From the NCBI RefSeq assembly GCF_900167335.1, contig NZ_FUXI01000001.1, forward strand, positions 1-38,553: DNA of 38,553 nt, in the 5' to 3' direction. This document shows, piece after piece, positions 9,191 through 19,860 of the stretch. A program made the position numbers and the translations under genes. Source of the DNA: Pilibacter termitis (lineage in GTDB: Bacteria > Bacillota > Bacilli > Lactobacillales > Streptococcaceae). The notes under the pieces are model-generated. The model was not told the origin of the DNA. It did not search any database and worked only from the letters and a program-made list of their open reading frames with translations. The stretch's first letter is position 1. Each line of letters begins with the position of its first letter.

Positions 9191-9316
9191 TGTCTAGCTA
9201 CAAGAGGCTGAAGTCTGGCAACTGCTCACAATGTCGCTTGCAACTTACGTTGCAAGTAAATAAACGACATGGTTCGCTGTTGCAGACTTCAAAACGCCCC
9301 TTGTAGCTTTTCTTTT
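9191..9316 (+). repeat. nested-palindrome repeat unit R1
   Basis: The unit begins TGTCTAGCTACAAGAGGC and ends GCCCCTTGTAGCTTTTCTTT. Outer arms (AGCTACAAGAGGC / GCCCCTTGTAGCT), a middle pair (GAAGTCTG...ATGTCG / CGACAT...CAGACTTC) and a perfect inner palindrome (CTTGCAAC TTAC GTTGCAAG) would fold as one long hairpin. It is almost identical to R3. Confidence 0.85.
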
Positions 9317-9440
9317 TGTCTAGCTACAAGGGGCAGGAGCTGGGTCGATGTTCGCAATGCCACCTGAAACTAACGTTTCAGGCAAGTAAATGGCATGGCT
9401 CTCTACGACCACCTCCTGAACGCCCCTCTTTGCTTTTCTT
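9317..9440 (+). repeat. nested-palindrome repeat unit R2
   Basis: Same layout as R1 but diverged: the inner palindrome is CCTGAAAC TAAC GTTTCAGG and the right outer arm reads CGCCCCTCTTTGC. It directly follows R1 head to tail, which gives a repeat period of about 125 bp. Confidence 0.85.
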
Positions 9441-9567
9441 TGTCTAGCTACAAGGGGCTGAAGTCTGGAAACTGCTCACAATGTCGCTTGCAACTTACGT
9501 TGCAAGTTAATAAACGACATGGTTCGCTGTTGCAGACTTCAAAACGCCCCTTGTAGCTTTTCTTTTT
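9441..9567 (+). repeat. nested-palindrome repeat unit R3
   Basis: It has a perfect 13-bp outer stem (9446-9458 with 9546-9558) and the inner palindrome CTTGCAAC/GTTGCAAG. Its terminal T tract runs into the activase stop codon: the TAA at 9568-9566 is built partly from the repeat edge. Confidence 0.87.
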
Positions 9568-10354
9568 ACCCTAACCCTTCGATGTTTACTGTGAAATTAG
9601 CTTTTTCAAATAGTTCCTTTATTGCTTGAATTTCCGCTGTTTCAAGCAATTTCGTGTCTTTCATTTTGTATTCCCAGCCTAAATATTCATATTTACTACT
9701 TCCATATTGATGAAAAGGAAGTAAGTGTAGCTCGTTTATTTTTTGTTCGATCAAATAATTTCTTATTGACAATAGGTTTTCCTGACTCGTTGTGTATTCT
9801 GGAATGAGCGGAATACGTGGAAGTAGTTCTACTGTTTCATTAAAAGAATTGGCGAGTTCAAAGTTTTCTTTGATGAGTTGAATGTCTGAGCCAATCACTT
9901 TTTTCGAAAGAGCTTTATCAAAAATTTTCAAATCGAAAAGTAATTGTTCCACATATGGAAGTAAATTTGCCAAACGATCCTTTGGAAAACAGCCTGTTGT
10001 TTCTATCGCTGTATGAATCCCTAGACTTTTCATTTCACTTAGAAATTCTTTTGCAAATTCTGACTGCATCAATACTTCCCCACCAGAAAGAGTCACTCCA
10101 CCGCCAGAAGCACGAAAGAAAATCTCATCTTTCAAGATTTCCTTTGTCAACTCTTCAACGCTGTACCATGTACCTATTGTCTCGCTTTTTCCATTTTTAT
10201 TCCACACGATCGGTGCGACTTCTTTTCTTGATTCTGGATTGGCACACCACGGACAAGCAAGCGGGCAACCTTTCAAAAACACAATCGTGCGAATGCCTGC
10301 CCCGTCATGAATAGAATATCGCTGAATGTTGAACACTAGACCATGAATTTCCAT
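9566..10354 (-). CDS. glycyl radical enzyme activase (radical SAM, PflC-like)
   Basis: Activases of this family use S-adenosylmethionine and a [4Fe-4S] cluster to install the glycyl radical on their partner enzyme. The cluster motif C-x3-C-x2-C is seen as GCPLACPWC near residue 30, followed by the glycine-rich SGGGVTLSGGE. An upstream in-frame ATG exists at 10399, but the start at 10354 (MEIHGLVFNIQ) has the ribosome site AAGGGGG and begins just past the radical enzyme's stop, giving 262 residues. Apart from these three and one isolated Cys (ETTGC), the protein lacks the extra cysteine-rich ferredoxin-like insert found in many activases of PflD-type enzymes. The partner is the gene immediately upstream. 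Confidence 0.93.
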   Translation of the reverse strand: MEIHGLVFNIQRYSIHDGAGIRTIVFLKGCPLACPWCANPESRKEVAPIVWNKNGKSETIGTWYSVEELTKEILKDEIFFRASGGGVTLSGGEVLMQSEFAKEFLSEMKSLGIHTAIETTGCFPKDRLANLLPYVEQLLFDLKIFDKALSKKVIGSDIQLIKENFELANSFNETVELLPRIPLIPEYTTSQENLLSIRNYLIEQKINELHLLPFHQYGSSKYEYLGWEYKMKDTKLLETAEIQAIKELFEKANFTVNIEGLG

Positions 10355-10364
10355 AAATACCCCC

Positions 10365-19206: not shown

Positions 19207-19280
19207 CGTCCCCGACAAGACTCGAACTTGCTACCTATCGCTTAGGAGGCGATCGCTCTATCCTGATGAGCTACGAGGAC
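19207..19280 (-). tRNA. tRNA-Arg (anticodon CCU)
   Basis: A 74-nt cloverleaf: acceptor GTCCTCG/CGGGGAC, D-arm with GCTCATCAGGATAGAGC, anticodon stem ATCGC/GCGAT around loop CTCCTAA, T-arm ending GTTCGAGTC. It reads AGG codons. CCA is not encoded. Confidence 0.94.
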
Positions 19281-19482
19281 TTCTACTTATGCGTATTCAC
19301 ATACTTTGATAGTATCAGAAAAATGAGGAATGTTCAAGGAATAGCAATAAAAAAATGGAATCCCCCCTCTCTCCTTCTTTCAATTTTCAATACCATACAA
19401 AAAATATCGCATAACAAACACCGAATAAAATTTCAGTTTTCATGCGGTAATTTCATTCAAACCATTCGTTTATTTGTGTGTT

Positions 19483-19719
19483 CTATCTCTCTTTATATTC
19501 CCTATAAATTTTTGTCAAAAAACGTTCAAAAGCTACCATGATAAGTACAAGAATAAATACAATCTCTAGGCTTTCCTTGCCATAAAATAGAAAAAATAAT
19601 AGCAACAAAACTAGTCGTCTTTTGTTTTGAATGTATTCTTTTGTTTCTAAAAATCCAAGAAAAAAAGCAATCGGTGTTAAAATAATATGACATAAAAACT
19701 TCCTTAGAAAATCATTCAT
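19483..19719 (-). CDS. small hydrophobic membrane protein, unknown
   Basis: A 78-residue protein with two to three hydrophobic segments (LCHIILTPIAFFLGFL; LVLLLLFFLFYG; LEIVFILVLIMVAF) and a basic C-terminus. The ATG at 19719 follows AGGGGAG at a normal distance. The frame is open further upstream, but that part is read through a repeat unit and is not credible as protein. No family is recognised. Likely a real minor gene, but this is not proven. Confidence 0.5.
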   Translation of the reverse strand: MNDFLRKFLCHIILTPIAFFLGFLETKEYIQNKRRLVLLLLFFLFYGKESLEIVFILVLIMVAFERFLTKIYREYKER

Positions 19720-19735
19720 TTTCTCTCCCCTTTTT

Positions 19736-19860
19736 TGTCTAGCTACGAGGGGCTGAAGTTGGGCAACTGTTCGCAACGTCGATCGAAACTTCGTTTCGAG
19801 TAAATGAACGACGTCGCTCACTGTTGCAAACTCCTGAACGCCACTCTTCGCTTTTCTTTT
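19736..19860 (+). repeat. nested-palindrome repeat unit R7 (solitary)
   Basis: Starts TGTCTAGCTACGAGGGGC, has inner palindrome CTCGAAAC-style TCGAAACTTCGTTTCGA, and ends CTCCTGAACGCCACTCTTCGCTTTTC. A TTTTAGAGGTCCC motif follows directly. Confidence 0.85.

Follow-up and report, generated by a model that had tools for sequence, protein, structure and literature searches.

A nested-hairpin intergenic repeat of Pilibacter termitis that looks like a widespread small mobile element of Bacilli

The window analysed here is a stretch of 38,553 nucleotides from Pilibacter termitis (the host; contig NZ_FUXI01000001.1, positions 1 to 38,553 of the forward strand), between whose genes lie seven complete copies of a repeat unit that is about 122 bp long and that, in its reference direction, runs from AGAAAAGC to AGCTAGACA. 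All seven are on the minus strand. Units 1 (9191-9313; 123 bp), 2 (9317-9439) and 3 (9441-9563) form one array, in which unit 1 has the same sense as the flanking genes and adjoins an internally deleted, minus-strand unit fragment (read by eye at about 9150-9190), and in which the end of unit 3 and the stop codon of a pyruvate formate-lyase activase-like gene (9566-10399, minus strand) are 2 nt apart. A second array consists of unit 4 (17871-17992), unit 5 (17996-18178), which is a long form carrying a 61-bp hairpin insert (18060-18120, read by eye) at the conserved GTTTATTTAC loop, and unit 6 (18180-18301), together with the end fragment of a further unit (17854-17870, minus strand, read by eye). 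This array is held inside one copy of a second repeat, termed R2, whose minus-strand halves occupy 17796-17853 and 18302-18345, as indicated by R2 k-mer matches on both sides and by an R2 alignment. Unit 7 (19736-19857) stands alone; the Shine-Dalgarno-like sequence AAAAAGGGGAGAGAAAATG comes next in the gene sense, and what is probably left of a terminal repeat of R2 (TTTAGAGGTCCCTTA, 19861-19876) was identified by eye and by comparison with the R2 alignment.

A covariance model recovers all seven units. The count of seven complete copies and two fragments given in the initial annotation stands, as does its statement that every copy in the window is intergenic; two short open reading frames that overlap units (18071-18355 and 19483-19821) are taken to be spurious. 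The deleted copy that it placed at 38519 does correspond to a unit remnant (38519-38553, minus strand), but this borders an assembly gap, marked by a run of N, and may be an assembly artefact.

Each unit had been described as three nested stems. A further stem, of the AATGTCG/CGACAT type, lies between the middle and inner stems of that description, giving one long hairpin of four nested stems, the termini of which pair over a few bases only (AGC/GCT). When folded as RNA and compared with shuffled sequences, unit 1 reaches -63.4 kcal/mol (z = -9.4) and the other units yield z-scores of -5.6 (unit 2), -10.2 (unit 3), -3.0 (unit 4), -1.4 (unit 6) and -4.7 (unit 7); this range of -10.2 to -1.4 covers six units, the long unit 5 being left out. 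The nested arrangement thus does not extend to every window copy: the outer and middle arms of unit 5 are mismatched, those of unit 6 are of two different types, and unit 4, with arms partly of different types, is borderline. Within this array arms fit a neighbouring unit better than their own (cross-unit duplexes of about -27 kcal/mol, versus own-arm duplexes of -20.6, -14.7 and -18.5 kcal/mol for units 4, 5 and 6, respectively); among 60 adjacent unit pairs examined, it is the sole place where arms are swapped in this way.

Genome-wide, the nested fold covaries. In an alignment (A1) of 98 of 101 host units, three having been left out, 27 of the 35 base pairs show two-sided changes, which speaks for the proposal that compensatory change preserves the structure; 97.6% of paired cells are complementary, versus 82.6% after shuffling and 34-43% when the arms are slid relative to each other, and the observed covariation score was reached by none of 500 shuffles. 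The two arms of each stem vary together while different stems assort almost freely: with one unit taken per array (n = 55), linkage of an arm to its own partner is 0.53-0.89 and to other arms -0.09 to 0.52. The shape of the unit looks to be kept while its sequence changes.

The strand on which this shape is kept also appears to matter. Of the two strands, the sense strand forms the more stable fold in 97 of 101 host units (mean difference -4.1 kcal/mol, versus +0.1 for shuffled sequences) and in 78 of 85 units from other Bacilli (mean -6.1, versus -2.8 for shuffles). With DNA energy parameters this advantage nearly vanishes in the host (57 of 101), and on the transcribed strand of host units G-U cells outnumber A-C cells by 70 to 25. 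A reading of the units as antisense terminators was rejected: a simple scan found 7 terminator-like sites, versus 7.0 in shuffled sequence, none of them at a unit.

Covariation of this kind could in principle be mutational in origin, if hairpin-templated correction (quasipalindrome repair) and gene conversion rewrote both arms together. Near-identical units do show several paired changes at once in one stem: in 16 unit pairs (not independent of each other) two or more base pairs have changed in B1 and nowhere else, versus 4 with a single paired change; and the scrambled array at 17871-18301 shows recombination through the core. Strand-specific stability, however, is not expected from a strand-symmetric correction process, and arm-mismatched units are few (8 of 125 fall below threshold, two of these being probable extraction errors). 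We therefore regard a purely mutational origin as improbable.

In the host genome 572 matches to the unit end were found, 274 forward and 298 reverse, versus 2 (one on each strand) for a reversed-pattern control; the common direction reported for all copies accordingly holds within the window but not beyond it. From 147-160 unit ends counted in 724,836 bp of host sequence, of which units make up about 2.8%, the genome is estimated to contain 570-620 units; because units share descent, such counts do not represent independent events. The 61-bp insert is a single optional module, present in 22-24 of the sampled units, and its core occurs 24 times within arrays and never outside them in 725 kb of host sequence. 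Plasmid and phage collections gave no match to unit 7.

That the units are mobile, as the initial annotation had suggested, is supported by empty and filled copies of R2, which itself looks like an ordinary MITE. Empty sites (43) read GTGGTTCATAGGTTGAGGAG; filled sites (7) read GTGGTTCAT, then A, C or CA, the unit through GCTAGACA, and then AGGTTGAGG. Comparing the two reveals no target duplication of 2 bp or more, evidence that comes from one target in one genome. Unit orientation at this target is fixed in all 7 intact filled sites, and 13 arrays have R2 beside them in the same direction, versus 1 that has it solely in reverse. As an orthologous empty site for the array at 9191-9563, a locus in one genome (G022) was rejected: it keeps the pfl-pflE-fsa gene order, with a gap of about 230 bp that does not match the unit model, but is too diverged for an insertion point to be placed.

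Beyond R2, host arrays are followed by purines: at least six of the next eight bases are purines in 62 of 71 arrays (of 80 arrays, 9 that met N or the end of a contig were set aside), versus a whole-genome, rather than intergenic, background of 0.196. Setting aside 18 arrays that run into the start of a unit and 10 that lie in R2 leaves 35 of 43. Outside R2, 15 of 22 ends have a Shine-Dalgarno-like word within 12 nt, and in R2 9 of 9 do (whole-genome background 0.064); units in the host often sit just 3' of stop codons and just 5' of Shine-Dalgarno sequences. Where both neighbouring genes are codirectional, units outside R2 run with the genes in 43 cases and against them in 1; inside R2 the corresponding counts are 7 and 3. 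Units apparently follow their neighbouring genes because the target is purine-rich, in many cases being the Shine-Dalgarno sequence that precedes the next gene. Targeting by replication strand, to which an apparent bias of host arrays against the G-rich strand had pointed, was rejected: that bias is better accounted for by gene direction and, after it, by R2 context.

Other Bacilli depart from this pattern. Their units show no bias relative to the G-rich strand (35 versus 35) or to gene direction (20 versus 19), although in one Enterococcus-like genome (G056) 12 loci leaned by strand (10 versus 2), and adjacency to a Shine-Dalgarno-like sequence, found at 2 of 21 ends, fails as a general rule; hence the target rule is shown for the host genome only. 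These observations bear on whether the units are instead host-beneficial RNA elements, retained and amplified because their transcribed hairpins stabilise the 3' end of an upstream mRNA or insulate a stop codon from a downstream ribosome-binding site. Such a role would account for the gene-sense orientation outside R2, for positions right after stop codons and right before Shine-Dalgarno sequences, for the excess of G-U over A-C cells on the transcribed strand and for a sense fold that is favoured with RNA parameters and hardly with DNA parameters. Yet units in R2 track R2 more than they track genes, and in other Bacilli the sense strand still folds better in the absence of any gene-orientation bias. 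Host benefit as the primary explanation thus seems unlikely.

Units with AGAAAAGC..AGCTAGACA termini, strong folds and other interiors occur in many Bacilli, including Listeria and Enterococcus, and 26 of 398 genomes of the class, the host included, contain at least three. The features of this superfamily are its termini, a length of about 113-130 bp and a nested fold with covariation; the termini were defined by the search pattern, and covariation was assessed in the 98 host units and in 26 units of other Bacilli (A2) that were hand-chosen from folded units for length and likeness. For Enterococcus and Listeria, folds were computed for single units. The terminus-pattern scan yielded at least 80 loci, of which later counts omit ten: a Virgibacillus match and nine loci that are not from Bacilli, most of the ten folding weakly. 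Structured relatives also occur in other genera of the host's own family, where at most 61 candidates were scored per genome, and 200 kb of Enterococcus faecalis contained no unit with these termini.

What might move such units? Enzymes of the IS608/ISDra2 type can yield insertion without target duplication, target-fixed orientation, a strand-specific fold and head-to-tail insertion, which are the traits seen here; Y1 tyrosine transposase genes are widespread in the class, with 216 of 398 genomes having them. The units might accordingly be REP- or PATE-like elements moved on single-stranded DNA by an IS200/IS605-type or RAYT (Y1) enzyme, and in lacking target duplication and having a fixed orientation at R2 they do resemble IS200/IS605-derived elements (PATEs). 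But searches of the host genome for three families, PF01797 (Y1), PF07282 (TnpB) and PF02371 (IS110), found none, an absence that for PF01797 and PF07282 is not absolute because the assembly is a draft; the host thus differs from hosts of PATEs in having no TnpA or TnpB relative in that draft. Nor do Y1 genes track the units: they are present in 17 of the 26 genomes that have three or more units and in 199 of the 372 others. Around 24 Y1 loci, drawn from 18 genomes of which 15 have units and 3 do not, no unit lay within about 1.5 kb, in a search that required an exact GAAAAGC and that degraded units would escape; one loose match near a Y1 gene (L148) reads like coding sequence. Mobilisation by Y1 or RAYT enzymes therefore finds no support in host gene content, genome cross-counts or the flanks of Y1 loci, and we consider it quite unlikely; TnpB and IS110 enzymes were rejected since both families are absent from the host genome.

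At gathering thresholds Rfam 15 reported only tRNAs in the window, with no match at a unit, and nothing but rRNAs in 15 loci taken from genomes with units. Literature searches with TGTCTAGCTAC, TTGTCTAGCT and AGCTAGACA returned no bacterial repeat family in the titles among the matches listed (TGTCTAGCTAC being without a match), and keyword searches of openly accessible papers did not find the units described. According to PMC3049150, BOX elements are high-copy structured repeats of Streptococcus pneumoniae and S. suis that have an optional central module and fold if transcribed, and both BOX and RUP are reported to have terminal inverted repeats and target duplications. The units share with BOX a high copy number, a similar size, structure and an optional central module; they differ in leaving no duplication at R2, whereas BOX is reported to duplicate its target, and in forming a single nested hairpin, some copies of which have a 61-bp insert, rather than a modular A-B-C arrangement. 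Like RUP and typical MITEs they are non-coding, folded and mobile-looking, but they lack a target duplication at R2 and their termini barely pair. Efa-1 of E. faecalis, which we infer to be EFAR (cited in PMC3733652), is likewise a structured intergenic repeat in Lactobacillales, but PMC2267715 gives it 163 bp, 65 copies and a pair of adjacent hairpins, a size and fold unlike those of the units; with no unit in the 200 kb of E. faecalis, identity with EFAR seems unlikely. REPs resemble the units in being palindromic, often at gene 3' ends and with many near each other; according to PMC3733652, however, they are 20-40 bp palindromes, mostly with GTAG or CGTC tags, whereas the units are about 122 bp, with four nested stems, arranged head-to-tail, and no RAYT occurs in the draft host genome or, by an exact-end search, beside units. 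That the units are a variant of BOX, RUP or EFAR, as their size class, the boxB-like optional module and the structured relatives within the host's family might suggest, is thus highly improbable given the differences in termini, target duplication and fold. The view that the units match no named family holds for those whose published features were compared (BOX and RUP, REP/RAYT and, in part, EFAR), and overall the initial observation is partly confirmed and its interpretation supported.

Several hundred copies in the host, together with the same ends and other middles in many Bacilli, make the unit look like a widespread mobile element. We judge the units to be a new family of small mobile repeats: probably non-autonomous elements that insert without duplication 5' of a purine tract, that are oriented by their target and that are under selection for their fold. 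Insertion would take place immediately 5' of purine-rich tracts, as read on the strand bearing the reference sequence; in the host such tracts would often be the Shine-Dalgarno sequence of the next gene, the A-run before a terminator, the fixed R2 site or the 5' end of another unit, the last of which would generate head-to-tail arrays. The target would set unit orientation and, as a consequence, most units would be transcribed in the gene sense. Selection would act on a single-stranded fold, present either in RNA or in a single-stranded DNA intermediate, rather than on sequence; the folded strand may be the substrate of an enzyme, and the host may tolerate the transcribed hairpins or draw mild benefit from them as RNA structures between cistrons or at 3' ends. 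A more speculative extension, which we put forward as rather doubtful, is that the units represent a new class of Bacilli mobile element, in which mobility depends solely upon two short termini and the folded shape of one strand, the interior being free to change, with an enzyme outside of the known Y1, TnpB and IS110 groups and possibly an intermediate, RNA or single-stranded, by which purine-rich targets resembling Shine-Dalgarno sequences are located.

Descriptions of small structured repeats usually proceed species by species. In the present case, repeats from many Bacilli have interiors without sequence relationship and yet are joined by a single set of termini and a similar fold plan, apparently a widespread, undescribed kind of small mobile element in this class. 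Two questions thereby become testable: by what means short structured repeats move when no target duplication is left behind, and whether their conserved folds are due to a function as RNA, to a single-stranded intermediate or to templated mutation. Because their stems assort as matched pairs, the units provide a natural experiment on the origin of conserved folds.

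The seven complete units and two fragments that the initial annotation claimed are confirmed by the window sequence; the remnant at 38519, described there as a deleted copy, adjoins a run of N and hence is not to be read as a natural deletion. These units (nested-hairpin repeats of ~122 bp) read from AGAAAAGC to AGCTAGACA and, within the window, lie on the minus strand, in the same sense as their neighbouring genes. One of them (17996-18178, minus strand) carries an additional 61-bp hairpin (18060-18120), the core of which occurs 24 times within arrays--that is, head-to-tail runs of units--and never outside of them in a 725-kb sample. 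The window also contains, at 37-4790, degenerate repeats at multiples of 63 bp, which resemble YD/RHS-type coding repeats.

The window is part of contig C20 of the Pilibacter termitis draft genome (2.79 Mb; 59 contigs; 98.7% complete), a search of which revealed further copies: a unit-end pattern matches 274 times forward and 298 times in reverse, versus 1 + 1 for the reversed control. A sample of 724,836 bp (six whole contigs plus parts of two others, C20 and C24) was searched with a profile made from 48 units, yielding 193 hits in 80 arrays, which occupy 20,611 bp (2.8%) of the sample, and no hits in reversed sequence. Adjacent units of arrays are separated by a 2-nt spacer at 67 of 82 junctions. 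Because this sample holds 147 to 160 unit ends, the genome as a whole should contain ~570-620 units. The arrays seem to cause assembly gaps (contig ends and N runs, e.g., L032, 18554-19013), several contigs starting or stopping near a unit, so that the actual number of copies may exceed this estimate.

The consensus of 98 distinct units is one nested hairpin, comprising stem A, a long multipart stem B, stem C, the asymmetric loop GTTTAYTTRCT and stem D. With this structure 97.6% of 3429 cells are paired, versus 82.6% in shuffles and 34.0-43.3% with slid partners, and the covariation score is 0.498, versus 0.209 and at most 0.116, respectively, although derivation of the structure from the same alignment on which it is scored gives it an advantage over the slid versions. 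Two-sided changes occur in 27 of 35 pairs (19.4 in shuffles), which upholds the earlier reading of compensatory change in the stems; column pair 62-77, for instance, takes all four Watson-Crick types, a single unit of the 98 being the exception. When arms are treated as alleles, each arm shares with its partner an adjusted normalised mutual information of 0.43 to 0.92 in the full set of 98 units and of 0.53 to 0.89 in a set reduced to a single unit from every array (n = 55), versus -0.04 to 0.52 (near zero for the outer stem) for physically adjacent arms of different stems in the latter set; thus arms ~90 bases apart are linked, whereas arms a few bases apart are unlinked.

Such matched-pair stems can be explained either by selection for pairing over many rounds of change or by templated rewriting of the arms. 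Among near-identical units, 16 pairs differ by at least two paired changes in stem B1 (a part of stem B) and by at most six other columns, versus four pairs with a single paired change, where these pairs have units in common and so are not independent; these data do not fully separate the two explanations. Arms can also be exchanged: in the window array at 17871-18301 they are swapped between neighbouring units, with cross-unit duplexes of about -27 kcal/mol versus -14.7 to -20.6 kcal/mol for the units' own arms, from which it follows that recombination through the conserved core occurs. Among 60 adjacent pairs in the 725-kb sample, swapping is confined to the two within this array, and mismatched units are rare: of 125 units extracted, 8 fall under the arm-matching threshold, and two of those 8 probably reflect faulty extraction.

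The strands of the unit differ in predicted stability. In 97 of 101 P. termitis units the reference strand forms a more stable fold than the complementary strand (mean difference -4.1 kcal/mol, versus +0.1 in dinucleotide shuffles), and so it does in 78 of 85 units of other Bacilli (mean -6.1 kcal/mol; shuffles -2.8), where, as with the cell counts below, kinship by descent means that the units are not independent trials; the difference persists when each locus contributes a single unit (n = 70). With DNA parameters this advantage is seen in 64 of 70 units of other Bacilli and is almost gone in P. termitis units (57 of 101). In the latter, G-U cells exceed A-C cells (70 vs 25), even though minor states at unpaired columns are more often G to A (118) than C to T (65; not normalised). 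Strand-specific predicted stability and the G-U excess point to a single strand as the entity that would be under selection and, in P. termitis, to RNA more than DNA.

Among 27 unit pairs that are more than 95% identical, 8 are within one array; the others connect different arrays, with a shared flank in 9 cases and unrelated flanks in 10. We infer from this that copies have reached new locations. A repeated landing site is R2, a second repeat (~150 bp; terminal inverted repeats of 18 bp; ends GGGCACCTCTAAAAACTC and its complement) that looks like an ordinary MITE. The empty junction at its centre, GTGGTTCATAGGTTGAGGAG, is present in 43 copies in the genome. In seven filled copies in the sample, GTGGTTCAT is followed by A, C or CA, then by a unit or array and then by AGGTTGAGG; in an eighth copy and in some others the left flank is altered. 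Comparison of the seven filled with the 43 empty copies reveals an exact right end and no duplication of two or more bases. In the window, R2 halves at 17796-17853 and 18302-18345 surround the array at 17871-18301; R2 is also seen at loci L101-L110. R2 sequence is co-directional beside 13 arrays and solely reverse beside one, which adjoins an R2 end rather than the central junction.

For the 67 arrays outside R2, the genes on either side both run with the unit in 43 cases and both run against it in 1, are divergent in 9 and convergent in 9, with one side geneless in 5; of the 13 arrays in R2, 7 run with the flanking genes, 3 run against them and 3 lie between divergent genes. At least six purines occur in the eight bases past the right end of 62 of 71 arrays (whole-genome background 0.196), namely 18/18 running into a next unit start, 9/10 in R2 and 35/43 others. 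A Shine-Dalgarno-like word lies within 12 nt past the right end in 15 of 22 cases outside R2 and in all 9 cases in R2 (whole-genome background 0.064), the word at filled R2 ends coming from R2's own sequence. A purine-rich target strand would fix unit orientation, and in P. termitis this target may often be the ribosome-binding site of the downstream gene. In other Bacilli, gene direction and the G-rich strand are without effect on the units. In the Enterococcus-like genome G056 (loci L072-L099), units run against the G-rich strand at 10 of 12 loci, and on its single contig they occupy opposite strands in two stretches.

The exact termini, spaced by 92-120 bases, occur in 41 of 398 genomes of the class, with at least three in 26 (P. 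termitis included), versus 14 genomes with at most two each for reversed termini. In a closer draw of 78 genomes, again including P. termitis, seven match, and only P. termitis, G056 (19; same order) and G069 (2) do so more than once; a same-genus genome (59% complete) has no matches, either to these termini or to the covariance model described below. Among the matches listed in a scan of named genomes are Neobacillus, Cytobacillus, Anoxybacillus, Evansella, Lysinibacillus, Psychrobacillus, Planococcus, Sporosarcina, Shouchella, Listeria rocourtiae, Enterococcus ureasiticus, Enterococcus sp. MJM12 and others; at least nine listed matches outside Bacilli were taken for chance. One G056 unit is identical over its first 80 bases to a unit of Enterococcus sp. 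MJM12. (NZ_CP143580.1 of E. faecalis, loci L276-L279, deposited as a 747-kb plasmid, has infC, rplT, ligA, gatCAB and other normally chromosomal genes and is probably a piece of chromosome.) Although interiors are unrelated, a nested hairpin is also the fold of 26 hand-chosen units from several other genera (mostly Bacillaceae), in which two-sided changes affect 26 of 38 pairs. The termini, length and plan that the units have in common suggest shared ancestry or an enzyme acting on all of them.

A covariance model of P. termitis units, scored on up to 61 candidates in each of 58 genomes, matches diverged members in two other genera of the same family (8 in G018, 2 in G026 and 1 in G019). Those inspected retain the GUUUAUUNACU loop but differ in their arms; the units of Enterococcus, Listeria and G056 do not match the model. 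The model also found a sister family of repeats, whose termini resemble AAAAGGTGC..AAGCCCGATA, at L282 and L283 (G019 and G026; ~1501-1623), where similar-looking sequences stand in a row.

As candidate movers, the transposase-related families Y1, TnpB and IS110 have no match in the P. termitis genome, a draft assembly that may miss multi-copy genes. Y1 genes are about equally common with and without units (17 of 26 genomes having at least three units vs 199 of 372 others), and no unit was found in the ~1.5 kb around any of 24 Y1 loci, which come from 18 genomes (15 with and three without units). Many genomes of the class have a Y1 gene that scores weakly (E about 1e-13 to 1e-18) and is RAYT-like in size, e.g., L145-L160; no units of the P. 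termitis family were seen beside these.

Among known repeats, BOX and RUP are described as having terminal inverted repeats and target duplications, BOX with boxB modules in variable number (PMC3049150); REPs as 20-40 bp, mostly with GTAG or CGTC tags, the GTAG type being tied to RAYTs, and EFAR as a MITE of Enterococci (PMC3733652); and Efa-1 as a 163-bp double hairpin in 65 copies and Bhal-1 of B. halodurans as 74 bp in 36 copies (PMC2267715). As far as these published descriptions allow comparison, none of BOX, RUP and REP fits the units and Efa-1 differs from them in size and fold, and no description of AGAAAAGC..AGCTAGACA repeats was found in the literature searched. The units are a real, large, fold-conserving family, most likely a mobile one, and an addition to the small interspersed repeat kind.
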